From contig JALLAP010000128.1 in NCBI GenBank assembly GCA_036939355.1, positions 1-25,368 of the forward strand: 25,368 nucleotides of DNA, given 5' to 3'. Under the pieces are notes generated by a model that worked only from the letters and a program-made list of their open reading frames with translations, had not been told where the DNA came from and made no database searches. Source of the stretch: Thalassiosira profunda. Lineage: Eukaryota; Bacillariophyta; Thalassiosirophyceae; Thalassiosirales; Thalassiosiraceae. A program made the position numbers and the translations under genes. Shown here piece by piece: positions 3,064 through 21,649 of this stretch (position 1 is the first letter of the stretch; every line of letters starts with the position of its first letter).

Positions 3064-4257
3064 CTACGCCGAAGCCGCGAACAGCGAACTCTTCGTCGGC
3101 AACCCAAGCCCCGTTCTCGCTGATCCTTTGGATGCATCCGCTGCTTTCGTCGCAAAACTGTCATTAGCATGCTTTTCTATCCAAGGATGATGCAATGCCT
3201 CCGCGGCCGTCATTCGCTGTGCAGGGTCCATCTGCAACAATCGTCGAACGAAGTCTTTTGCGTCTTCGCTGACAAGGCTCCAATCATCCTCGCCAAAGAC
3301 AAAGTCGCCTACCAGGACGAGCCTCCGGGTCTGTTCGCTATCTGTGCCACTAAAGGGCGGATATCCCGCAATTAATATGTAGGCCGTGATTCCGACCGAC
3401 CAAAGATCGCACGCCTTGTCGTAGCTTTGTCTCAAGACCTCCGGAGCGATGTAATGAGCTGTGCCCGCGATTGCCGTCATGGGCGGCTCTCCGGGGAGGT
3501 GATGTCGTGCCAGGTCGAAATCTACTATCTTCACGTCCGACTTGTCGTCCTCAGTAACAAACAGTATGTTCCCCGGTTTGACATCTCTGTGCACGATGTC
3601 GTGGCGGTGCATGTACGCCACGGCCGACAGGACTTGTCGGATTATTCTCGCCGCGTCGTCCTCTGCAACGCAGGCCCATCCGCCGATCCTGTGCAACAAC
3701 TCTCCGCCCGCGCAAAGATCGAGGACGAAGTGGACGTATGTCGTGCTCTCGTAGACGTCGTGGAGGCGGACGATGTTAGGGTGGTTCATTTGTTGCAACA
3801 GCGATATTTCGCGGGCGAGGCCGGCCGGCGCCACGGTGGTGTTGGTCTTGTTGATGGATTTGACCGCGTACTTGAGGCCATCGAGCTTCCGGGTGCAAGC
3901 TCGGACGGATCCGTTGCGACCTCGGCCGAGCAGCCGAGGATCGATTCGATACTTGTTGTGCACGCTGCTGACCTTCTTGGCCGCGAAGGAGTGCGCCGCC
4001 GCGGTGAGAGAATCGGCGGATGCGCGCAAATCTTCGCTGCTGGCGTTAGCTGACGCTGACGAGTCCTCCTCATTGCTGGTGATGGTGTTAGCTGACGTGC
4101 TGCACGACGAGACGGTGAGGGCAGTTGTCGTCGCGTTGCTGTCCGCGAGTGGCGATTGGTGCCCATCGCGAGCCGCGTCCTTCCTCGCGGCGGCCTTCCC
4201 CGCGGCGGCATCCATTCTACTGTCCGAGGGGGTTCCTTTCGTGGTGCCGGCGTCCAT
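3064..4257 (-). CDS. CaMK-like Ser/Thr protein kinase with DFD in place of DFG
   Basis: Single-exon gene of 397 aa starting at the ATG at 4257. Residues 1-100 are a low-complexity Ala/Ser/Thr/Asp tail. The kinase domain spans about 103-365: glycine loop GRGRNGSV (111-118), AVK lysine 133, alpha-C Glu 150, HRDVKPGN with catalytic Asp 225, APE (271-273), and the CaMK-type sub-domain XI ending AEALHHPWI. The hinge (LDLCAGGELLHRI) and DLWSVGITAYILIAGYPPF fit the CaMK/CDPK group. No EF hands or clear calmodulin-binding helix follow; the C-terminus is only a short Ser/Ala tail. The magnesium-binding motif reads DFD (246-248): the metal Asp is kept but the Gly is replaced. It is probably an active cytosolic kinase; substrate unknown. 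It converges with the upstream LRR gene (131 nt apart) and diverges from the lipid enzyme at 4635. Confidence 0.9.
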   Translation of the reverse strand: MDAGTTKGTPSDSRMDAAAGKAAARKDAARDGHQSPLADSNATTTALTVSSCSTSANTITSNEEDSSASANASSEDLRASADSLTAAAHSFAAKKVSSVHNKYRIDPRLLGRGRNGSVRACTRKLDGLKYAVKSINKTNTTVAPAGLAREISLLQQMNHPNIVRLHDVYESTTYVHFVLDLCAGGELLHRIGGWACVAEDDAARIIRQVLSAVAYMHRHDIVHRDVKPGNILFVTEDDKSDVKIVDFDLARHHLPGEPPMTAIAGTAHYIAPEVLRQSYDKACDLWSVGITAYILIAGYPPFSGTDSEQTRRLVLVGDFVFGEDDWSLVSEDAKDFVRRLLQMDPAQRMTAAEALHHPWIEKHANDSFATKAADASKGSARTGLGLPTKSSLFAASA

Positions 4258-4634: not shown

Positions 4635-5778
4635 ATGGGCGATCCCGACGCCCGCGCCACTTTCAACGCCCACCGGCGGCAGCTGAAAAATGCCGTCCGT
4701 CGCGACGTTCTGTTCCTCGTCGGCGGCGTCATCGCCTACTGCATCGTGGCATACGTCGAAACGTACGCGTCGGACGACGAGATTCGCCTGAAAAATGTCA
4801 TGCAATCGTTGTCGGAGGGGCAGGACGGCGATGACTGTGTGGAGAATGACGGAGACGCATGTCACACGCAGCGCGCTGATCGGCAATCAACGGGGATTAT
4901 CGACGCGGGCTTCATCATCACGAGGCCACTGCATTCCTATTTGGCTCGCAACCGCGACGTGAACGACATGCTCGCGATGGGCAATTCCATTCTACTGACG
5001 ATCCCGCTCGCCTATGTGGCGTATGTCACTCTGTGGAAGGGAGACTTCCGGCTGTCCTTTCGGCTGATTGCGACGCACCTCTTTCGGACGTGCTGCGGCT
5101 GGTTCACGTATTTGCCGCCCCCCGCGGCGTTCCTCCCGTCGGTGTACGACTTCCCGGAGATGCTGCTCTGTCTGAACCAAGAGTGCTCCGTCGACAGCGT
5201 CGAGGTGAACTTTCTGACCTTCTTTTCCGGCCATGTCGCAACAATTGTGAGTTGCAATTGACGCTACAGTATATCGTGGCTAGAACTTGCTACTGATTGC
5301 CATTCACTGTCTTCAGGTCATCATCGCAAACTATCTGTATCTGGCCAACCACACTCGCCTGGCGGTCTGCCTGCACTGCTTCAACTGGCTGCAAGCCATT
5401 CGATTGCTGGCCACCCGGGGGCACTACTCCATCGATCTCATCGTCGGTTACGTCGTGGCCGTCTTTGTATCGCATCCGGCGGAGCGATTAGGTCTCTATT
5501 ACTCCTGGGGCATCCAGCCGCCGCTCCCATCCGCCCTCGAAACGTTCGAGATCTTGGTGGGGGTGAGCTCTGCGGGGCCGGCGAGGAGCAACGCTGCCGT
5601 GTCCAGCGAGGATGAAACGAAGGAAAAGGGGAATAGCTCGACTTTCCCAAAGCCGAACATTCACGGCAATGCGCATCGAGTGCAATCGGACACGAGCGTA
5701 CGAATCGCAGTCAATATCTTTGCGGACATTGCGATGAAACGGAGCGAGAGCAGTCCGGCCTTGTGTCAAAGCGAATGA
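4635..5778 (+). CDS. Sphingomyelin-synthase-like / PAP2_C multi-pass membrane transferase
   Basis: Exon 1 is 4635-5246 and exon 2 5317-5778, with a 70-nt GT-AG intron, phase 0. The product is 357 aa. Membrane spans are visible near residues 24-45, 113-135, 140-165, 190-215 and 245-258. The catalytic signature of the sphingomyelin synthase/PAP2_C family is present: SGH with His 200, then GHYSID with His 240 and Asp 244. Spacing is close to the H-H-D triad of animal SMS enzymes. Family members move a phospho-headgroup from a glycerophospholipid to ceramide at the Golgi or plasma membrane; whether the headgroup here is choline, ethanolamine or inositol cannot be read from sequence. The N-terminus has no SAM domain. 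The last about 90 residues are a Ser/Glu-rich cytosolic tail. The insert between the first two spans is acidic with two Cys. Confidence 0.82.
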
Positions 5779-5985: not shown

Positions 5986-8900
5986 TTACTCCTCGGCATC
6001 GTGTTCCCTCTCCCACCGCGTGCTCCCGTGCTTCCTTAACCGCCCGTTTTCTCCCTCGGCGGCCGCCGCCTCCTCGGCGTGATTTCGTTCCGTCCGCGTC
6101 GTTCCCTCGCGGACGCGGTGCGCCCGTGCGCGCTCCACCTCGAAAGTAGTGCTGGACCAACCATCCGGCGGTCCCGACGACGCCCGCGGCGACGACGACC
6201 ACTTCGCGCCCTTGGAGCGCTTGGCGCCCTTGGACGACTTGCCCCCGACTTTGGCGGGGCGGGGCGCCGATGCCGCGGCGGGCGATGGGGACGGCTTGCC
6301 ATTGTCACCGTGGGAAGGCGGCGGCGTCGTTTGCCCTTCCGTTGGCTTCGTTGCTGGCGTCTCGCTCTCGTCCGACTCCGGCATCGACATGGACAAGTCC
6401 AGCATCTCGGAGGGCGTGGGAGCATTTGTTCCCAGCTCGAGGTCATCGTCTGAGTTGGAATTCACAAGGCTCTGCTTTGGCACCGCGGGCGCCGGTGGCG
6501 GTGCCTCGGCCACCTCCGGATCGTGGCAGTAGTCCCCGCCGGGGACGTCGCCCGCGCCGCCCGCCGCGCACCCCGGCACGGGCGTCGACCGCCCCACCGG
6601 CCGTCGAAAGCACGCCAGCGACCCCCGGCAGTCGCCGTCCGCGTCGCAGTCGCCCGCGCACGCGGCGCAGGGCGCGGCGGGGGTGCACCCCCCCGCGCCC
6701 CGCCACCGCAGCGGACCGGCCGGCGTGGGCGCCGCCGTCGATCCCGGCGCGTCGCCGCCGCCGTCGGGATCGAAGCAGTAGTCGGCGCCGGCGACGTCGC
6801 CCGGTCCGCCCGCGGCGCACCCCGGAACTTGGGCGCGGTCGTCCCGCGCGCGCTGGAAGCACGCCAGGCCGCCGACGCAATCGGCGTCGCCGTCGCAGTC
6901 GCCCGCGCAGACGTCGCACGGAGCCTCCGGGGTGCACGCGTCACGTCCCTGGTAGCGCAGCCGCGGCAGCTCATCTCCGACGGGCGCCGGGGTTGGCACA
7001 TTACCCAAGTCGGCCTCCGCCACAAAGTCCCAGCCGTACCTGTCCTCGGTCCCGCACGGCGTCACGACCAGCGGCGCGCCCTTCCACGCGTCGTTTCCTC
7101 CTTGGAAGGTGACGCACAAATCGTCGTGCCCCTGCAATTTCAGCGCATCGGGCCCGCGCGACTCATCCTCGCGGTAGAATTCCGTCAGCACGTCGTCGGC
7201 GCCACAGGGTCCCACCTCCACGGGCGCCTCGACATTGCGTCCACGGCTCTGCAAGAAAGACAAGGCGAGTGAGCAACAGAATTTCAAAATTTGAAATTCA
7301 ATTCGAAAAAAAAACGCTCGTTGAAAATTCAAACGGTCTTTTGAAAATTTTGAATTGGTTTGAAAATTCAATTTTCCAAATGGTCAAAGTTTTCAAACGA
7401 CCATTTCAAACGGTTCAAATTTGAAAGCAACAAGCCGAATATGACCAAGCACTTACCGGGTCGACGCTGTCCAAGGGCACCAGCATGCAGTTCTCGTCGT
7501 CCCAGATGGAGCGAATGTGACCGTACGGGTCCATGTGCCACAGCTGGTCCATCTGCTCCATCCGCGCGACGATCGAGCCATTATCGGCGCCGTCGCTGCT
7601 GTTGGTGGATGTGGTCAGCGTATCAGGCGCGCACGGCTCGAGGAGGAGCGGCGAGTGGGCCGGGGCCAGGGCGCCGGAGATGCACCATCCCGTGCTTGTG
7701 CCGCTCCAACCCTGCTGCAGCCCCCGGTCTCCCACGACGCCGGACCGTTCGACCGCCAGACCACTGCCGCCACCCGCCTGGGATCTGATAAAGTACGCCT
7801 CCACCTCCCCATCGTCCGTCGTCGGCATCCCGCTCGGCCTATCGTCAAATCCGACGTCGTAACAGTAATCCGCGCCGGGAATGTCCCCCTCCCCGCCCGC
7901 ACTGCACCCCGGAATCGGCCCGCCCTCCCCGTCGGCCCGCTTGAAGCAAGCCAGCTCGACATCGGGGTCGGACGATTGGCAGTCGGCGTCGGCGTCGCAG
8001 TCCCCCTCGCACGCGGCGCAGGGCTCGTCGGGGGTGCACCCGTTGACGCCCCGCCAGACCAGATTTCCGCTTTCTGGGGCGGGCGGCGGGGTTCCATTCG
8101 TACTCGGCGCGCGGGACGGAGTGGGGTGGCGGGGCACGCAATAGTCGGCCCCGGGCACGTCGCCCGCGCCGCCGGGGGCGCAGCCCGGGATGCCCTCGTC
8201 GAGGATGCGGTGGTGGCACTCCAACCCCTCCTGGCAGTCGGCGTCGGCGTCGCAGTCGCCGGTACAGACATCACAGGGTTCGTCGGGGGTGCAGCCGTTG
8301 ACGCCGCGCCAGGTGAGGGGCGGATAGCCGCCCGGCGGCGTGGTCAACGGGGTGGGGGCGTGGGTGGGCGGGGGCCACAGTCCGTGCCAGCTTTTGGATT
8401 TTGCGGACTTGGACTTGGAGGATTTGGGACGCTTGAACAGCTTGGCTTGCACGTCGTGGCCCCAGCCGGCGTTCTCTTCGTCGTGGTGGTTCCAGTCGGA
8501 GCCTTCTCCGTTGGCGTGGCCGGTGCCGTGGTCGTTGGGCTTGCCGGAGCCGGAGTTGCCATCGTTTGAGTTGGCGTCCTTCCCGCTGGACTTGCCGCTC
8601 TTGCCCAGCGGGCTTCCGTTATTGGCAACTTCCTCCTCGTCGCCGTGGATCCAGCTGCCGTCGCCAACCTCGCCGTCCTCGTTCCAATGGAACGGATCCT
8701 CCTCGTCGTCCTTGGCCGCCTTGGCCGCCTCGCTCTTGCCGCTCTTGGCCCGGCGCCACGCATCTTCCGCGCGGGCCTCGAACGCCGCGTCGGCTCCGCC
8801 GTGCGCGTCCGCCTCGGGAGCCTCCGCAGCAGCTGCTTCGCTGCCTTCGTCCGCCTCAGGCTCGGGCGCGGGCTCGGGCTCGGTTTCGCCGTCCGCGAGG

Positions 8901-9097
8901 TACTCGTTGTGCATCTTCAGACCGCGCGTGTGCACATCGTTTGAGCGCCGCCGCCGCGGAGGCCCGCGCGGCCGCGGCAGGCCCTCGTGCCGCGCGCCGA
9001 CGCCATTCTCTGGCAATGGTCGTTCGACGCCGCCGGCGGGGGGCTCGGCATGGGCCGTCGCCGAGGCCGCGAGGCCCAGGAGCATCCGCCGCTTCAT
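5986..9097 (-). CDS. Secreted Cys-rich repeat protein with ricin-type trefoil and Lys/Ser-rich segments
   Basis: Exon 1 is 9097-7457 and exon 2 7248-5986, joined in phase 0 across a 208-nt intron; 967 aa. It opens with a signal peptide (MKRRMLLGLAASATAHA). Next comes an acidic, Gly/Asn/Lys/Ser-rich region (about 70-240) with KSGKSSGK and KSSKSKSAKSKS stretches like those in diatom wall or secreted proteins. Two Cys-rich modules follow (263-320, 348-412), then a region of about 190 residues resembling a ricin-B beta-trefoil (QLWHMDPYGHIRSIWDDENC, LQGHDDLC, YGWDF), then two more Cys-rich modules and a Ser/Thr/Pro stalk. Modules share GCTPxxPCxxCxGDCDxDxDC ... PGCxxGGxGDxPGxDYC; the Asp ladder suggests metal binding. 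Probable role: extracellular sugar-binding or wall protein (inferred). The last about 90 residues are uncertain because another frame encodes a membrane-span-like stretch. Confidence 0.8.
6526..8311 (-). repeat. Four Cys/Asp-rich protein modules encoded in the secreted gene
   Basis: Module 1 lies at 8311-8138, module 2 at 8056-7862, module 3 at 6960-6775 and module 4 at 6708-6526. Each has about 58-65 residues and eight or more Cys in the order GCTP..PC..C.GDC, D.DC, L.C, PGC, DYC. Modules 1 and 2 share WRGVNGCTPDEPC exactly; modules 3 and 4 (CTPEAPC, CTPAAPC) are nearer to each other. This suggests pairwise duplication on each side of the trefoil. Confidence 0.85.
7249..7456 (-). other. AT-rich 208-nt intron inside the trefoil
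   Basis: GTAAGT donor (GT at 7456-7455) and TTTCTTGCAG acceptor (AG at 7250-7249); splicing joins DSVDP to SRGRNVE in frame. The interior is far more AT-rich than the flanking exons and is dense in TTTGAAA and its complement TTTCAAA, with GAAAATTCAA repeated. It could fold on itself. Confidence 0.85.
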
Positions 9098-11668: not shown

Positions 11669-12020
11669 AGTTTGATCCTCCTGCGCCGCGTCGTCGCCAT
11701 CGTCGCCCCCGAGGACGGCCTCGGCCGCGGCCCGTGCGGCAGCCCACGCGCCCCGCTCGGCCTCGGCGCGTCGGAGCGCGCGGACGACATTGATTTTTTC
11801 TGCTTGTATAGGTCCGCCAACAGCGACCCCGCCCAGACGATGTCTTTGTGAGGGGCTGCAGAGTGCCCTGGCGGCTGTCTGCGGATAGGGGGTGCGGGCG
11901 TGGGCGTTGAGCGAGGGAGCAAGCGAGCAGCCACAAAGGCAAAAGCAGCGGGTCGCTGACGGACAACTCACCACCGATCTCTTGCTTCAAATTCAAAGCA
12001 CCTTCGCCCGCCGCGCCAAC
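11669..12020. promoter_or_regulatory. Divergent region between RRM gene and photolyase-family gene
   Basis: Holds the possible 5' coding extension of the RRM gene (to 11799) and the promoters of both genes. A possible donor (GGTGAGTTG on the minus strand, about 11970) and acceptors (CCGCAG, CTGCAG, AAGCAG) suggest a spliced 5' leader for the minus-strand gene. No other feature was recognised. Confidence 0.45.
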
Positions 12021-13823
12021 ATGATGGCGGTGCCCCTCGCGCTGGCGCTGCTGCAATCCTCGCGCGCCCTCCTCTCGGCGCCGGCGGTCGCCACTCCCCG
12101 CCCCCGCCTCGCCTCGGCGCGCCGAGCACTCTGGCGAGCGACACATCATGGGTATCCTGATGGCAGCCGCCGACACAGATCTAGGTGCACCGCGGTCCGG
12201 GCCGCCTCCGCTTCATCGCCGGATGACGCCTCCCGAAAAGATACGGCGTTGCTGTGGCTCTCCCCAAATCGACTGCGGGTGCGGGACAATTTGGCATTGA
12301 CGCGGGCCGCGGAGCTCGGACGCGACGGACTCGCAATCTGCCTCGCATGGTCGCACAACACATCGGCAGCGTCATCCATTGACAATTTCACTCCGGTCGA
12401 GGCGTTTGGGCTAGCGGCCGCGCGGGCGCTGGACGCCTCCCTCGAAGAGTTGGGCCAAAGGCTGGTGTTTCTGCAATCGCACGAGGCGGAGGATCCAGTA
12501 TCCATTATTGCCGAAGCAGTGCATCATTTGCAACCGGCTCATGTGATGGTGGACACCTGCCTTTTGGACCGGCATCGCAACTATGCAACAAAGCTGCGTG
12601 GCAAATTGCAGAACATGAGCGAGGATGCTGCAAATGCTCCTCCAAATGTTGTGGAGGTGATTGATGACGGCACGCTGGTCCCCTTTCAGCAGGCGCACAA
12701 AGCGTTGGGGCGCAGCCGCAAGGGCGGCCGGTCGTTGAGGTGGACGACCTTTTTGGGCAACGCGCTGAAGAGAATGGGAGAGGACGGTATGAGCGAGAGG
12801 CTGACCACTTGGGATATGCCAGACCTGCCTCCGCCACTGCATGGGTGCGATGACATGCTTGCAACAACACTGGGCGTCGCTTGCTATCCATCGTGGGCGC
12901 AGCAGCTTCTATCAGATTGGGGCGAAGTGTCCGAGGCTGAAGCAATGTGTCGCGCAAGCAACAGTGCATCAACCCCACTGACAAATGGACCTGCCAATTC
13001 GTCTCCCTTGACCGAAAAGGGTTCTAAAGACACCAAACTATCGCCGTATCTGCGATACGGAGTCATTTCGCCCCAGCGCGCTGCAAAAGCTGGCGTGCGC
13101 GTCCGCGACCTCCTCTGGCGAGACTGGTCGCACATTTGCTTTGGCCTGCTCGGGCCGATAAGACGAGGTGATGCGGTGCTCGAATTCCTCGACGAGGCTT
13201 GGTGCCCGCTGTCCAACACGCTGGGTGTTGAGGAGGAGGACCTCTTCCGTCTCTGGTGCGTGGGGAACACGGGCTCCAAAGTGGTGGACGCGGGCATGCG
13301 GCAGCTGTGGAAGGAGGGGTGGATGCCGCGAAAAATGCGAATCCTCTCCGCCGCCTGCCTCGTGGAGGGACTGGGTATCAACTGGCGTTGGGGCCGGGAT
13401 TGGTTCGCGCATACTCTGATTGATTGCGATCCGGCAATCAATGAGTTGATGTGGCAGAACGCCGGGATGTGCGGGGTTGATCCGTTCTATACGTGCGTGA
13501 AGTGGGAGGCATCGCCGAACATCGAAGGCGAGGAAGGCGCATATGAGTATGTCGAAAGGTGGCACAACGAAGAGCTCGTTTGGCCGTCGTATTTGAAGCC
13601 CTACGCGGAGAGAGAGCCTCCAAAAGAGATCGTCGAGAGAGCAAACTCGCAAAGAGAGGCGCTACAAAAGAAAGGCGTGTACAAGGCGGCGAGGACCGTG
13701 GCCAATAGCGGAGTGCGCGTCGCGTGGCCAGGATTGGATCCATCGGGCATTGTTGTCGAAGAAGGAGAGGTTATGGGAGTTGGCCTGACCCCTGTGGATG
13801 AGTTGAGAATACGGGCTCAGTGA
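12021..13823 (+). CDS. Cryptochrome/photolyase-family flavoprotein with organelle presequence
   Basis: Single exon of 600 aa from the ATG at 12021; the open frame upstream has no ATG. Residues 1-65 are Ala/Arg/Ser-rich and basic, like a transit peptide. The N-terminal photolyase alpha/beta domain covers about 75-220 (ALLWLSPNRLRVRDNLAL). The FAD domain covers about 338-520: TKLSPYLRYGVISP, NTGSKVVDAGMRQLWKEGWM, INWRWGRDWF and LIDCDPAINELMWQ. These match the family's TG.P.vDAgMR.L...GW motif, the W.WG motif and the D.D.A.N..WQ motif. Tryptophans are kept at GWM and at INWRWG. Differences: Gly-Ser-Lys in place of Gly-Tyr-Pro, and VDPFYTC where repair enzymes have the NP..Q end. It could be a DNA repair enzyme or a light sensor; the sequence does not decide. 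Its 3' end converges with the ABC transporter (110 nt apart). Confidence 0.85.
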   Translation: MMAVPLALALLQSSRALLSAPAVATPRPRLASARRALWRATHHGYPDGSRRHRSRCTAVRAASASSPDDASRKDTALLWLSPNRLRVRDNLALTRAAELGRDGLAICLAWSHNTSAASSIDNFTPVEAFGLAAARALDASLEELGQRLVFLQSHEAEDPVSIIAEAVHHLQPAHVMVDTCLLDRHRNYATKLRGKLQNMSEDAANAPPNVVEVIDDGTLVPFQQAHKALGRSRKGGRSLRWTTFLGNALKRMGEDGMSERLTTWDMPDLPPPLHGCDDMLATTLGVACYPSWAQQLLSDWGEVSEAEAMCRASNSASTPLTNGPANSSPLTEKGSKDTKLSPYLRYGVISPQRAAKAGVRVRDLLWRDWSHICFGLLGPIRRGDAVLEFLDEAWCPLSNTLGVEEEDLFRLWCVGNTGSKVVDAGMRQLWKEGWMPRKMRILSAACLVEGLGINWRWGRDWFAHTLIDCDPAINELMWQNAGMCGVDPFYTCVKWEASPNIEGEEGAYEYVERWHNEELVWPSYLKPYAEREPPKEIVERANSQREALQKKGVYKAARTVANSGVRVAWPGLDPSGIVVEEGEVMGVGLTPVDELRIRAQ

Positions 13824-13933: not shown

Positions 13934-16900
13934 TTATTCTCCCTTGTAGCCTTCTTCGCTGAGGGGATCGATTGCGCTCTCCCTGTCAATCAACGTAAAG
14001 ATTCTTTCGCCTGCAGCCTTCGCCTTGTCGCGGTCAGTTGCGCCTTGGCTGAAATAGATAGCAGAGGCACCAATGTGAGGTGTGAGCGTTGAAACAGCAC
14101 TAAACCCACAGCTGGAAACTCACGCAGCCATGCCCAAGCCGGAGAGCGAAAAGAGAAGGGAGAACATCGAGATCAGGAAGTCGCGGAAGGTGAAAGCGTC
14201 CGGCCATTTCCAGAGAACGAAACCGCCCCACCAGAACATCAGCGCGATTCCCCACATCTGAATGAATTGGCCCGACGCGACCAGGGAGCACTTCTTGAAT
14301 GTCTCGAGCAGGGACTCGGGATGTTTCTTGCGAAGCGCCTCGGTGTAGTCGTCCAAGCGGGTCTCCTCGAGCGAAAGCGACGCCACTGTACGAATGTTGA
14401 GCAGAGACTCGATGGCGATCGCGCCAGGGCCGTCCTCGTCCTCCTTGATTTCCGCATCATCTTCGCCCATGTACATCTTCATCTCCATTTCGGCTCCAAA
14501 CCCCATGAACCTGCCCACGGTGCGGACGAATAGTGAGTTTGATTGGCAAATGAAGCGCAAGTTGTCAGCATATATTCACTCACGGGATGGTCGCAAGAGA
14601 CACCAATGCGAAGGGCCACATGTAGATGAAGGAAACGACAACTCCCACAAGGACGCTGGTGAGGCTCATTACCAGCTGCCGAATTGGCTGCCCAGAGAAG
14701 CTGTGGATCAAAGCCGCATCATCCGACAGCCGGGACGTCAAACTACCAACAGAGTGGGCGTCGAAGAAGGCGATCTCCTGGCGGAGGAGGCTGGTGAATA
14801 CCGAATCTCTCACGCGTTTGTTCATCCGCTCGCTGGCGCTTCCGAACCCATAAAAGACAAGAATGTCTCCAATCATCACAGCGCCAATCACGCCGAGCCA
14901 GCCCCACGTCAATTGGAGGGAAATGGTCCTCAGCTCATCAGCGACAGACGTGTGATATTCGTCACACGTTGTGTAGGGTTCAGGCACGAATTCTTCTTCG
15001 TCACAAGGAAGGACGGGGTAGTAGAGATACTCGACCACTGGCGGAGGCGGAGCACGATTGAGCACATACACAAGAGAAACAGGTCGATAACAGATGGGCA
15101 ACAGTGGCCACTCACTGTACGCAAAGATGATGCCCCAGCCGGGGAACATCAGACCCGCCAAGACTGCGCCCACAGACCCCACAGCAAAGTAGCCTACGTC
15201 ATCCTTCGCCAGCAGGCGTGCTTTCGACGCGATCTTCTTTTCGGTCTCTTTGTCCACCTCTTTGTCTTTGCCCTCCTCATCCTCGTCCAGTACGGCCGTG
15301 CTCTTACTCTTCACCACAGATTTCTTGGCAGAATTCTCCTTTGCCGGGCGATGCGAGGTCGTCCCCATGTCCTGCAACTCCACAAGCACTCGGTACTTGC
15401 TATCAGGGTTCGCCATGAGTTCGTCGTGCGTCCCAATCTCTCGAACGCGTCCATCAGAAATGTAAGCAATCCGGTCTGCAAACGACAGGGAGACGACACA
15501 TGTAAGGAGAAGGGCAGAAAGAAATATCCGTCAGTCTCAACGACGCTTACCTGCGTTCTTGATCGTGCTGGAGGCACAGAACACAAAGGCAGGGTGAGTG
15601 AGAGGCAAAGAAAGAAGCAATCCGATCATTCCAAATCGACTCCTACCTGAGGCGATGCGCGATGACGATCGTTGTCCTGCTGTGCTCTTGCATCAGCAGG
15701 TCGAGAGCTTCTTGCACAACTCGTTCGGACGCAGTGTCGAGGGCTAATCCATTGAATTATTTGGCGTAAGATTGGGTCAAATCGATCGCAAAGGCAAGAC
15801 ACAACAGATGCAGATCACCTACCAGAGGTGGCTTCATCGAGCAGCAGCACGCGAGGGTCCTTGATGATGGCACGTGCGATGGCAATGCGCTGCTTCTGAC
15901 CACCCGATACAGCCAGGGAGGTCTCGCCCAGCTGAGTGTTGTATCCTTCAGGGAAGGAAGAGATGAAATTGTGCGCGTTTGCCTTCTTTGCAGCGGCATA
16001 AACCTCCTCATCGGTAGCATCAGGTTTTCCGTATCGGATGTTTGCCATGATGGTATCATTGAAGAGCGTCGGTTCTTGGCTGACCAAACTGATTTGGTTG
16101 CGGTAGTACTGGATGTTNCATGATGGTATCATTGAAGAGCGTCGGTTCTTGGCTGACCAAACTGATTTGGTTGCGGTAGTACTGGATGTTCAAGTCTTTC
16201 ACATCCCGGCCTTCAAATTCGATGGATCCCATCGTAGGATCGTAATACCTCTCGATCAGCTGCATCACAGTCGACTTGCCGTGACCCGAGGGGCCGACGA
16301 GGGCAAGCGTTTCTCCTCTCTTGACCGCCAGGTTGACGCCGTGGAAAATGTTCGTCTCGGGACGCGTTGGATAGTGGAAGTGGACATCTAACAAGAGGCG
16401 ATGTTAGATGCATGCAATCGAGCAGAACCTCAACTGAATGCTTGCGCGGCTTACCTTTCAGCACAATCTCATTTCCGGAATCCGCCAGGCCCGCGCGATC
16501 CTTTGGGACAAACACGCTGACCCTCCTATCTTCGTCCTTCTTCGCGTCGTTGCTCTCGCTACCATGGCCGCACCCATTGCCATGGTTGCTTTTGCTGGCG
16601 GTTCCGGGAGATTGCTGCGCGCGAACAAGAGTTTGGTACCCCCCTCCTTCGATAGCCATCAACTCGTCGTGCGTGCCCGTCTCAGCGATCCTACCATTGT
16701 CCACGACCGCAATCATGTCCGCATTCTGGGCCACAAGGAACGAAGCTGAGCAAAAGAAGTGCAAATTCAAGTAGCAAACAGCTCCGTGCGGCATCTCACC
16801 TTGATTGTAGACAACCGATGCGCGACGACGAGGGTAGTCATTCCAGTGTGGCCCAACGATGACTCTTTCGAGAGGATTTCGTCGAGCGCCCTCTGAACGG

Positions 16901-19600
16901 TTTGCTCCGATTCGCTGTCGAGGGCACTAGTGGNACTCTTTCGAGAGGATTTCGTCGAGCGCCCTCTGAACGGTTTGCTCCGATTCGCTGTCGAGGGCAC
17001 TAGTGGCCTCTGTTGGAATAGCGCAAATCGTCAACAACTGGGTTCAAGGAACAAATGCATTGTCAAAGAGTAGGTAATACGCACCATCGAGCAACAGGAT
17101 CTTCGGCCGACGCAACAGGACGCGAGCGATGGCGATCCGTTGCTTTTGGCCACCAGACAATTTTCCTCCCAGATCGCCGACCAAAGTGTCGTAGCCGTCT
17201 GGGAAGTCCATGATGAAGTCGTGCGCGTTCGCCGACTTGGCCGCTTCCTCAATCTCGCCTTGTGTCGGTGTCTTTCCGAGCGAGGTCACGCCATACGCGA
17301 TGTTCTCTCTGATCGTTCGCGCAAACAGCTTGGGCTCCTGGGAAACCAATCCGATCTGAGAGCGCAACCACTTGACGTTCAGATCCCGCAGATCCACTCC
17401 ATCTAGCTTGATGCCGCTGCCGTACTTGCCCTGCTCGACGTCGCCACCGAAACCGACGTCAGCGTCCACGTCGTAGAAACGCTCCATCAGAGACATTATG
17501 GATGATTTGCCGCATCTAGATGGGCACATGATGTGAGCAGTCAAAGCAGAAAAGCTGCACCCAGGCCAACTCTATTACTCACCCGCTCTTTCCCACAAGG
17601 GCAACAGTCTTTCCACTCTCGACTTGCAGGGAGAGTCCGTCCAGCACCTTGACCTGCGGTCTGGATGGATACGTGAATGTGATATTTTGGAACTCGATCC
17701 TCCCATTGCAAGTAGTTGGTTTCAGCCCTTCATCAGACGACGAGTCGATGCTGTAGGGAGGCATCTTTGAAGCTGGGACCCGCTTTTTGTGGTGGGTCGT
17801 CTCCATCACGCCCAAGGCGGAAGCATCGTCCTTTTCTCCCTCCGAGCTCGTGGTCGTCTCTCTGCCGACAGTTTTGACATCCCACGCCTTGCCCTTCGCC
17901 GAGTCCATCAGCGGCGTGGAGCTTGCCTCGTTGGTCGACATTCTATCAATCTCAGCCAGTTTTCGCGTCCCGCCCACGGTGCCTTCGTCGAGCAGCACAT
18001 TCACATCGAACGAGTCGTTGTAGTCTCCCTCGACGCGACGCTTCAGAACAAACGCCGGCCCCGCCGCCGCCTGTGCGCCCTGCAGTGATTCCGCCGCCCC
18101 GCTGACTTGCGGCAAGGCCATGGCCGCGATGGAGATGGCGAACAGCGCCCCGAATATTTCCATTCCGGTAGTAGGACAGGGCTCGTTCATCGGGACTGCA
18201 TTCGAGGGATCGCAACCCGTCTCCAACACGGCGTCGTACAGCAGCCAAAGACCAAAGAGGGTGNGGGACTGCATTCGAGGGATCGCAACCCGTCTCCAAC
18301 ACGGCGTCGTACAGCAGCCAAAGACCAAAGAGGGTGACTGCAATGTATCCGAGCAGCATGCTACCCATCACTGCGCCGTTCGCAAAGCCCAAAGCCCACT
18401 CCCTCTTCGTGGCAGTGTCGCAGGCCTCCTTCGTGGCTCCCTTGTAGTTGTCGATTGTCACGGGTACCGCATTGAGGCTGAGAATGGTGCGGATCCCACT
18501 GACCGCCGCGTAGGCTATTTCGCCGGCCCGCTCGTATCCTTTCTTTGCATCGGCACTCTGATTGGCAATCATTTTCATCAAGAACACGGCGCTCACGGAC
18601 ATGAAGGGGACGGTGGCCAGAACGACGAGGCTGACCTTCCAGCTGGAATAGAAGCCGTAGACGAACCCCCCTATCCCAGTGATCAGGAACTGGAAGCCTT
18701 CCCCCACCTTTCGCCCCAATCCCTTCTTCACCTTGTTCCCCTCTCCCTCGATCATTGCCGCTGTTCCCGCCACGTCCGTCAGATCGAAGTAAGCCGTATC
18801 CTGCTGCAGCAAAAGGGAGAGGTAGTTGCGCTGGAACAGCTGCGCCATGTCGGCGGCCGCGGCGTCGAGGAGGGTGTTCTGGGCGGACATGCTGACAAAG
18901 ACAATGACCCTGCGATGTACGGTTGCAAATGACGTTCAGTTGGAAGGGAACGGGAGCAAATGGATGATTTGCAAATGGGAACGTCTCATGTGAGCCCCAA
19001 AGAGTGCAACATCAACCAAAGAATGCACAAATCAACACGCAACGCACCCCAAGACCATGAACGTGTAGGCCATCTCCCGAATCCCGTCCATGAAGGTTTC
19101 GGTCTGCGACGGTACGGTGAACTTTTCGAAGACTTGCGCTGCGGTATGTTGGAGGACAGATTGCAAACAGATGTCAGAGAAGAGACATGCATAAGATGTG
19201 TCAAGTGAACCTGCGACGGTCATGATGTGATGGTCTCACCAAAGAAGAAGCACATGGCGGGGTAGACGCAGCCACTGATGAATGCGGATATGAGCCCAAC
19301 GATCAAGAAGGTGCGCGTCCGCGGCTTGGCCGTCGACAGCGACCACAGCTCCGCGAGGGAGGCGACGCTCTTCGGCTCCTTGTCCTTCTCCTTGTCCTTT
19401 TCATCGGCAGCTCCATCAGACGACGACTTCTTGTTCGGCTTGCTGTCGGCCCCGGTCTTGCTGCGCGCGGTCGGGGGGCGGTAGGACTTGCCGATGTTGA
19501 CCGTTGCATCGGGCCGGGTGTCGGCGTCGTGCGAGGATGGATTGGGCGTGCCGATCGCGAAGGAGCCGCCGCCGCCCCCTCCGCCCGACGATTCCGTCAT
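13934..19600 (-). CDS. ABCB/MDR-type ABC transporter with domain order TMD-NBD-NBD-TMD
   Basis: Thirteen exons on the minus strand: 19600-19240, 19138-19048, 18909-17583, 17515-17085, 17009-16800, 16725-16455, 16387-15823, 15743-15647, 15567-15551, 15475-15116, 15037-14584, 14510-14124 and 14048-13934. Removing 73 nt at each of three N joins makes all phases fit and gives 1488 aa. TMD1 (about 95-400) is followed by a long Ser-rich linker. NBD1 (about 530-775) has [33 protein letters not shown] and VAHRLST. NBD2 (about 845-1085) has [34 protein letters not shown] and IAHRLST. A charged linker and TMD2 (about 1135-1450) follow, ending [20 protein letters not shown], three more residues and TAA. 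Both NBDs keep every catalytic motif. It is a probable ATP-driven exporter of lipids or hydrophobic compounds in the plasma or an internal membrane; substrate unknown. Confidence 0.88.
15551..15567 (-). other. 17-nt microexon of the ABC transporter
   Basis: CACGATCAAGAACGCAG sits between an acceptor (CTCCAG) and a donor (GTAAGC). It is needed to rebuild the H-loop sequence [16 protein letters not shown]: the preceding exon ends at HRL plus AG, and the following exon starts with AC CGG. It enters in phase 2 and leaves in phase 1. Confidence 0.85.
16046..16190. repeat. Exact 72-bp duplication around a single N (unmerged contig overlap)
   Basis: 16046-16117 equals 16119-16190 base for base, with N at 16118. 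It encodes the Q-loop part of NBD2 ([19 protein letters not shown]) twice. Deleting one copy plus the N restores a continuous NBD2 exon. This is an assembly artefact, not biology. Confidence 0.95.
16862..17006. repeat. Exact 72-bp duplication around a single N (unmerged contig overlap)
   Basis: 16862-16933 equals 16935-17006, with N at 16934. It covers the D-loop part of NBD1 ([20 protein letters not shown]). Removing 73 nt leaves a 137-nt exon whose phases match both neighbours. Confidence 0.95.
18192..18336. repeat. Exact 72-bp duplication around a single N (unmerged contig overlap)
   Basis: 18192-18263 equals 18265-18336, with N at 18264. It covers the membrane-span stretch [20 protein letters not shown] of TMD1. 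Removing 73 nt leaves a 1254-nt exon in the right phase. Confidence 0.95.
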
Positions 19601-20160: not shown

Positions 20161-21282
20161 TCAACTCTTGCCCGCGGTGGCCCTCCGCCAGCTGTTCCAC
20201 GTATTCCGCAACAGCATGGCAATCGTCATCGGTCCCACGCCCCCCGGCACCGGCGTGATCCACCCCGCCACCTCCTTGGCCTCCTCGTAATTCACGTCGC
20301 CCACCAGCCGGTACCCCCGCTTGGTGCCCGGCGCGTCGACGCTGTTTATCCCGACGTCGACCACCACGCACCCCTCCTTGAGCCACGCCCCCGGGACCAT
20401 CTTCGCCCGTCCCACGGCCGCCACGACAATGTCGGCGCGCTTCACGATCTCCTCGGCGTTCTTGGTGCGGGAGTGCACGATGGTCACGGTGGCATTGCGA
20501 TGCAGCAAGAGCATCGCCACCGGCAGCCCCACGAGATTGGAACGACCGATGACCACCGCATTCTTCCCCTCGATGTCGCACTCGATCCGATCGAGTAGTT
20601 CGATGCACCCCTGGGGGGTGCAGGGGATGTGGAACGGGAGGGTCGTGAAGTCCCTCCAGTTCAGCTTCGCGGCGCCCGCGTGGGTGGCCGTGCTGAAGAG
20701 CTTGGCGGTGTTGGCGGGGTGCAGTCCGTCCACGTCCTTTTCGGGCTTCACCGCCTCGAGGATGGTTCCCTCGTTGATTTTCTCGGGCAGCGGCAATTGA
20801 ACCAAGATGCCGTGCACCCGCTCATCGTCGTTCCACTCTTGAATCTTCGCCAACAGTACCTCCTCCGTCACGGCCTCGACATCCTCGTAAGTCTCCAAAA
20901 ACGAATCCATCCCGCAGTCCGCGCACGCCTTCTGCTTCATCCGGACGTAGGTCTGGGAATCCTTCCGGGTGCCCACCAGCATGACGGCCAATCCGGGCTT
21001 GGACTCGGCAAGGGAGCGGCCGGCGAGCTTGTCGGCGAGCTCGGACCTCACGGCGGCCGCGATGGACTTGCCGTCGATGACGTTCCCGAGGCTGGATGGT
21101 TTGTCGTCGGCGGACATGGCGAGATGTGTGGATCTGTTGCGAGGGCGATGTTGCAAGTGTGTCGACCGATGCGAGGGCAGGTCCACGAAGGCGAGGGACG
21201 GTGCACGCGGCGCGATGGCGCTCGAGGCGGACGAGGAGAGCAGGAGGAGGACGGCGACGCGCAGCGAGGGCCGCACGGGCAT
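20161..21282 (-). CDS. folD: Bifunctional methylenetetrahydrofolate dehydrogenase/cyclohydrolase, presequence-bearing
   Basis: Single exon of 373 aa from the ATG at 21282. FolD interconverts 5,10-methylene-THF, methenyl-THF and 10-formyl-THF using NADP(H). The conserved residues are visible: TYVRMK with Tyr 112 and Lys 116, VQLPLP with Gln 162, and KDVDG with Asp 185. The spacings match E. coli Tyr50/Lys54/Gln98/Asp121. GRSNLVGLP and the following VHSRT form the nucleotide site, and PVPGGVGPMT closes the domain. No formyl-THF ligase domain is fused. Residues 1-55 form a hydrophobic leader (VRPSLRVAVLLLLSSSASSA, then IAPRAPSLAF) that looks like a signal plus plastid-type transit peptide, with AIAP where red-plastid presequences often have AFAP. 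An internal ATG (residue 56, MSADDKP) could give a cytosolic form. Divergent to the oxidoreductase gene at 21650. Confidence 0.93.
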   Translation of the reverse strand: MPVRPSLRVAVLLLLSSSASSAIAPRAPSLAFVDLPSHRSTHLQHRPRNRSTHLAMSADDKPSSLGNVIDGKSIAAAVRSELADKLAGRSLAESKPGLAVMLVGTRKDSQTYVRMKQKACADCGMDSFLETYEDVEAVTEEVLLAKIQEWNDDERVHGILVQLPLPEKINEGTILEAVKPEKDVDGLHPANTAKLFSTATHAGAAKLNWRDFTTLPFHIPCTPQGCIELLDRIECDIEGKNAVVIGRSNLVGLPVAMLLLHRNATVTIVHSRTKNAEEIVKRADIVVAAVGRAKMVPGAWLKEGCVVVDVGINSVDAPGTKRGYRLVGDVNYEEAKEVAGWITPVPGGVGPMTIAMLLRNTWNSWRRATAGKS

Positions 21283-21649
21283 GAAAAATCGGGTGTCGGA
21301 GATGACGAGAGGGCGGTCCAACGATGCGTCCGTCCGCGCTGTGTGTGTTGCAATGGTTGGAGTGGTTGAGTTGACGTTGTAGATGTTGAATGTGATGCGC
21401 CGATGGGTTGAGGTGCGACAGTTTGTGGTTGTTGCTTCCTTGGTTCAGGTGCGACAGCTTTGATTCGGTTCATCAGATAGTTGTGCCGTCTTGGTGCCCA
21501 AGTAAACAGGTACAATATCAGTAGTAAAGAGGCGGTATTTCCCTTTAGAAGCCCAACTTGGCTCTTATCAATAAAACCGAAGTTGAGAATAAGATCGCAT
21601 CTTTGTGTTGCTCACTCAACCTCCACCACACAAATCACCAATCACCCTC
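21283..21649. promoter_or_regulatory. Divergent promoter region, FolD / FNR-like oxidoreductase
   Basis: 367 nt between two start codons facing apart. It contains an imperfect direct repeat, GGTTGAGGTGCGACAGTTTG at 21406-21425 and GGTTCAGGTGCGACAGCTTTG-like at 21442-21462, spaced 36 bp apart. Both genes carry plastid-like presequences, so joint control is possible. Confidence 0.55.

Follow-up and report, generated by a model that had tools for sequence, protein, structure and literature searches.

A family of apparent ABCB-type transporters in diatoms with the domain order TMD-NBD-NBD-TMD

Can an ABCB-type exporter have its two NBDs side by side in the chain, with its second TMD at the C-terminal end and no NBD behind it? 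One source (PMC4649718) lists full ABCB transporters as TMD-NBD-TMD-NBD. What is encoded on the minus strand at 13934..19600 of the 25,368 nucleotides of Thalassiosira profunda DNA analysed here (the window) is quite a contrast: read from 19600 to 13934, the spliced frame gives TMD1, NBD1, NBD2, TMD2 and stop. That frame was built by excising 12 introns, all GT..AG, and, at each of three single-N contig joins, one of the two copies of a 72-bp overlap; it yields 1488 aa plus a stop codon. TMD1 (PF00664) is at 18014..19330 (aa 91-425; E 3e-39) and NBD1, here also called NBDa (PF00005), at 16615..17710 (aa 527-795; E 5.2e-29), both, like all parts of the gene, on the minus strand. A 46 aa linker (16477..16614) leads to NBD2, or NBDb (PF00005; 15366..16476; aa 842-1087; E 2.4e-34), at whose start the gene has an intron, 16388..16454, and a charged linker of 48 aa (15222..15365) leads to TMD2 (PF00664; 13985..15221; aa 1136-1472; E 3.5e-42). 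The end of the post-TMD2 linker, with the conserved tail ...RESAIDPLSEEGYKGE, and the stop codon occupy 13934..13984. All four pieces exceed the Pfam cut-offs. The original prediction, which had proposed this order for a 1488-aa product of 13934-19600 and placed an intron at 16388-16454, was right in each respect, the order being borne out by the spliced frame, by Pfam and by domain HMMs.

To which class of ABC proteins would such a product be assigned? With two PF00664 and two PF00005 domains it has the composition of the full ABCB transporters, P-glycoprotein/ABCB1, BSEP and plant ABCB1/19 among them, and draws on the same TMD and NBD families. It does not have their TMD-NBD-TMD-NBD order, as its NBDs are adjacent in the chain and no NBD follows TMD2. 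The membrane domains of ABCG transporters fall in a different Pfam family, whereas both TMDs here match PF00664, and the NBD-TMD arrangement of both ABCG/PDR halves is absent from a protein whose first half is TMD-NBD. The likeness of the NBD2-TMD2 half to the ABCG order (as given in PMC4649718) is formal. ABCE and ABCF proteins, in the same source, also have two NBDs adjacent in the chain; unlike the window protein with its two PF00664 domains, they are without membrane domains.

Is the order a product of the assembly or of the gene model? Three single-N joins, at 16118, 16934 and 18264, fall within the gene, which would suit contigs misjoined or misordered across a gene of canonical order. 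Each N is flanked on both sides by an exact 72-bp overlap, and a search of the 21.8-Mb genome finds the 72-mer of each join twice, once on either side of the N it belongs to, and nowhere else. The same overlap is found at 24 of the 26 N joins counted and is lacking at two, in a count over overlapping loci that takes some joins repeatedly; an N with an exact 72-bp overlap is this assembler's style of joining. Both critical junctions are gap-free, as NBD1 meets NBD2 inside 16119-16933 and NBD2 meets TMD2 below 16117, so that, as had been argued from the letters, the joins alone do not create the order. An independent protein of Thalassiosira profunda (P0001; longest contig 1.3 Mb) matches 100% of the window protein at 97% identity. 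The original prediction had laid itself open to a transcript with NBD2 after TMD2 and to an NBD exon missed downstream of 13934. When the order was re-examined in the 14 permuted proteins of transcript ('mmetsp') source among the 120 homologues listed, TMD-NBD-NBD-TMD was confirmed in all 14, and no NBD lies in the window between the TMD2 stop and the next gene, a photolyase-like ORF of opposite orientation. An artefact would now require that the independent protein and the transcripts of other diatoms all carry one error; with the overlaps unique as well, it has been rejected, and we give it next to no credence. The joins at 16118, 16934 and 18264, and a further one at position 2093 of a locus on contig C326, each insert 73 bases; as this is not a multiple of three, automatic gene calls on the assembly would break there.

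The photolyase-like ORF encodes a DNA photolyase-like protein by Pfam (11892-13823, plus strand). Pfam also recognises a tetrahydrofolate dehydrogenase/cyclohydrolase (20161-21321, minus), a protein kinase (3064-4257, minus) and an AtPDCT1/2-like protein (4635-5261, plus) in the window. Two adjoining minus-strand ORFs, 5986-7371 and 7415-9097, have repeated Cys-rich motifs of the form CTPxxPCxxCxGDCDxDxDC...; neither ORF matches a Pfam family at E 1e-5.

The gene is not the only one of its kind in this genome. A second permuted paralogue, on contig C1243 (7500-11004), is gap-free across its NBD1-NBD2 junction, until the contig end cuts it inside NBD2, at Walker A. In it NBD1, linker and NBD2 form an uninterrupted reading frame, and the border of NBD2 lacks an intron. 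The original prediction saw in the intron that sits at this border in the window gene a sign of exon shuffling; the intron is there, but the argument drawn from it is weak because the paralogue does without, and it has been dropped as evidence. Contig C326 (11200-17164) of this genome carries a canonical ABCB, TMD-NBD-TMD-NBD, so both orders coexist in one diatom. This canonical protein, 34% identical to the permuted one in the NBD-TMD stretch, and its relatives P0121-P0155 are the sister clade of the permuted proteins, with the linker motif DPLSEEG in common.

How widespread is the order? A search with the window protein gave 7906 homologues, of which the best 120 were listed and scanned with domain HMMs built from the window's own four domains and the matches of that search. 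TMD-NBD-NBD-TMD was found in 112 of these 120 (110 before split TMD matches were merged). The other eight comprise two fragments that fit the permuted order (NBD-NBD-TMD and TMD-NBD-NBD), five very long canonical double proteins, four from plants and one from a bird, and one doubled form. The last, P0005, is a 2566-aa gene model of Nitzschia sp. Nitz4 that reads TMD-NBD-NBD-TMD-TMD-NBD-NBD-TMD, its second TMD1 match being short; perhaps two tandem genes were fused in one model. A profile search added 33 new identifiers in the best 120 of its 5075 matches: 31 permuted proteins, P0273, which has the permuted order with a split NBD, and P0242, which is long and canonical. In a further search the query was canonical, residues 1-900 of a 955-aa stretch from contig C326 that spans TMD1-NBD1-TMD2. 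None of the 120 matches listed, of 7217, had TMD-NBD-NBD-TMD; 98 were TMD-NBD-TMD-NBD and 22 were fragments or odd models. That shows that the domain scan by itself does not produce the permuted order, and as the query is itself TMD-NBD-TMD the list leans canonical by construction and is no gauge of rarity.

Among the matches listed, the permuted proteins that carry an organism name are all from diatoms, and many rows carry no organism. The genera are Thalassiosira, Conticribra, Skeletonema, Detonula, Chaetoceros, Leptocylindrus, Rhizosolenia, Dactyliosolen and Attheya, together with Nitzschia, Cylindrotheca, Seminavis, Entomoneis, Pseudo-nitzschia, Fragilariopsis, Epithemia and one Bacillariaceae MAG. 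Thalassiosira profunda is a diatom and we take the other genera to be diatoms too; names shortened to, for example, 'Dact', 'Rhizoso', 'Detonul' and 'Pseudo' were completed by us. The original prediction had proposed looking for the order in related stramenopiles, and it is present in proteins and transcripts of other diatoms. The stramenopile host thereby implied agrees with the 97% identity to a diatom protein. Some diatoms have several copies, Cylindrotheca fusiformis at least five permuted identifiers among the matches listed in the profile search. Seven of the 143 permuted proteins (112 and 31) are shorter than 1200 aa and incomplete in a TMD. Others extend beyond TMD2 in Lys/Ser-rich C-terminal tails (P0260, P0254, P0255, P0268, P0250, P0060 and more; 135-197 aa in the twelve longest), in which the domain scan detected no NBD.

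Have the displaced NBDs kept what is needed for catalysis? In the window protein Walker A, signature, Walker B and H-loop can be read from the translation in both NBDs, as the original prediction had it in describing both as intact. When motif patterns were scored in the 143 permuted proteins, every NBDa and every NBDb had the signature SGG[QE]. Walker A is present in all 143 NBDa and in 141 NBDb, the H-loop pattern in 141 NBDa and all 143 NBDb, and the Walker B glutamate motif in 138 NBDa and 141 NBDb; the Q-loop pattern was missed in 4 NBDa and 14 NBDb. With the motifs so kept, both ATP sites look active. The end of the protein is conserved as well. Permuted proteins commonly finish in RIFxLIDRxSxIDPLSxEGKKxx-stop, and the linker of canonical proteins matches this, but runs on from DPLSEEG into NBD2. 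The C-terminus is thus a cut-short TMD2-NBD2 linker, as the original prediction had read it for the window protein, and from the domain border onward the old last NBD is missing.

From what did the permuted protein descend? Trees were made from proteins with four clean domains only, 112 permuted and 95 canonical, with NBDs below 200 aa and TMDs below 230 aa excluded. For IQ-TREE the TMD set was 37 proteins, chosen by list and by step: 13 permuted, 13 stramenopile-type canonical (identifiers up to P0155 of the canonical-query search, some without organism name) and 11 other canonical; the NBD set included 11 of the 13 canonical second NBDs. The TMD tree divides every TMD1, whether permuted or canonical, from every TMD2 with support 100; the permuted TMD1s fall with the stramenopile-type canonical TMD1s (98) and the permuted TMD2s with canonical TMD2s (99); both TMDs thereby fall with their ABCB counterparts, and FastTree on the full set gave the same groupings. 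Against PDB the best row for the window TMD2 is ABCB1 residues 762-1026, i.e., the second TMD of ABCB1. For the window TMD1, 32 of 55 rows match an ABCB chain best in its second TMD, and because of this its identity rests on the trees. On those trees the permuted protein comes from an ordinary full ABCB. A concatenated tree has the permuted proteins as one clade (0.996), sister to a stramenopile-type canonical clade. The permuted clade splits into groups of 76 (support 0.389) and 37 (0.999), and as each has centric and pennate members the change of order looks older than the centric-pennate split. Judged by sequence, then, the permuted family is a derived, conserved and reordered branch of ABCB, and one that lacks the defining order of ABCB despite its descent. 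That the window encodes a real full-length ABCB-type exporter, its order changed in an ancestor of the diatoms sampled here from TMD1-NBD1-TMD2-NBD2 to TMD1-NBD1-NBD2-TMD2, we regard as highly probable.

By what route was the order changed? Two are compatible with this explanation. NBD1 may have been duplicated in tandem and the C-terminal NBD2 lost, in which case 'NBD2' would be a second NBD1. One duplication and one cut are simple, TMD2 stops where its own NBD would start, and NBDa and NBDb are sisters (0.81 in FastTree, 88 in IQ-TREE). However, canonical NBD1 and NBD2 also pair within lineages (97, IQ-TREE) and homogenisation would yield the same tree, so the NBD trees are no guide to whether NBD2 moved or NBD1 was duplicated and the last NBD lost. 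Nor is either NBD clearly nearer to one canonical NBD, the mean identities of NBDa and NBDb to canonical NBD1 and NBD2 being 0.50-0.52, and no three-NBD intermediate was seen among 273 proteins, apparent cases being split NBD matches. All considered, we put the chances of this route at about even. The other would rearrange the second half itself: a tandem duplication of TMD2-NBD2 would have been followed by loss of the first TMD2 and of the last NBD2. Its end product is the same and it is consistent with all the TMD and NBD trees, though a remnant of the first TMD2 would hardly fit into the linker between NBDa and NBDb, which is short (family median 40 aa, minimum 28); we think this route rather unlikely. 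Whereas TMD1 and TMD2 each retain their ancestral identity, the two NBDs of a lineage, canonical or permuted, group with each other, and our guess is that gene conversion may have homogenised the NBDs.

Whatever the route, how would the reordered ABCB-type exporter work? AlphaFold models were made of two truncated relatives in place of the window protein: P0040, which is without its N-terminal part (about TM1-2), and P0006, which is without most of TMD1 (pTM 0.66). The modelled NBD pair of both superposes on the closed NBD pair of P-glycoprotein (ABCB1) in VIA, with NBD2 at the P-glycoprotein NBD2 position, in rows that span model residues 1-785 and 29-660, short of TMD2; for P0006 the VIA rows are headed by a crystal form of ABCB1 at 8.3 A. 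The P0040 model as a whole aligns poorly in Foldseek, its best row having TM 0.54 and rmsd 17.0 A over 1082 columns. AlphaFold was trained on PDB, and so the modelled NBD pair may in part reflect ABCB structures in its training set. The neighbouring NBDs are predicted to pair head to tail in the usual ATP sandwich, NBD2 taking its P-glycoprotein place. TMD2 may then have to use the NBD attached at its N-terminal side, as the original prediction held. TMD1 and TMD2 would presumably form one alternating-access pore, and TMD2 would be moved via its cytoplasmic coupling loops on the NBD dimer rather than by a short covalent link from last helix to NBD. In such a cycle ATP would close the NBD1-NBD2 sandwich, the coupling loops of both TMDs, seated on the NBD dimer, would turn the pore outward, and hydrolysis would reopen the sandwich. 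What would differ is the wiring: NBDs tethered to each other, and no NBD fused to the last helix of TMD2. Two flexible linkers make this topology reachable, that between the NBDs and that between NBDb and TMD2 (family median 49 aa, minimum 37; 48% D/E/K/R).

Might the two halves act apart? Both linkers flanking NBD2 are of low model confidence, and the second half formally has the NBD-TMD order of an ABCG half, so halves could swap between molecules or be cut apart, TMD1-NBD1 and NBD2-TMD2 pairing, for instance, across a dimer of chains. A single-chain model already forms the NBD pair, though, and a cut protein would not need the fusion that 112 of the 120 listed relatives keep; such pairing seems to us quite improbable. 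For P-glycoprotein, co-expressed halves show drug-stimulated ATPase (PMC4045855, citing Loo and Clarke 1994), and the halves therefore need not share one chain. As each TMD keeps its own NBD in that system, loss of the TM12-NBD2 link is not supported by the result. Returning to the single-chain exporter, we propose only tentatively, somewhat doubting it ourselves, that its tethered NBD tandem stays close through the cycle, that TMD2 is driven only by coupling loops, that the TM12-NBD2 connection is dispensable and that this is a diatom-wide class. The permuted protein probably works like ABCB, and its probable role is efflux of organic compounds or lipids. In one study erythromycin is reported to up-regulate abcb1 in Thalassiosira weissflogii (PMC10856835), a gene that may or may not be a permuted one.

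Among the titles and starts of abstracts listed from the literature searched, which leaves aside most subscription papers, a TMD-NBD-NBD-TMD order was not found described, and that string was absent by text search. In public records some permuted proteins go by 'bile salt export pump' or similar names; these hide the different order, and models on a P-glycoprotein template that ignore it would be wrong. A third domain order, kept across centric and pennate diatoms, is an experiment of nature: it tests which covalent links are needed for export, and sets what the coupling loops do apart from what the TM12-NBD2 link does.
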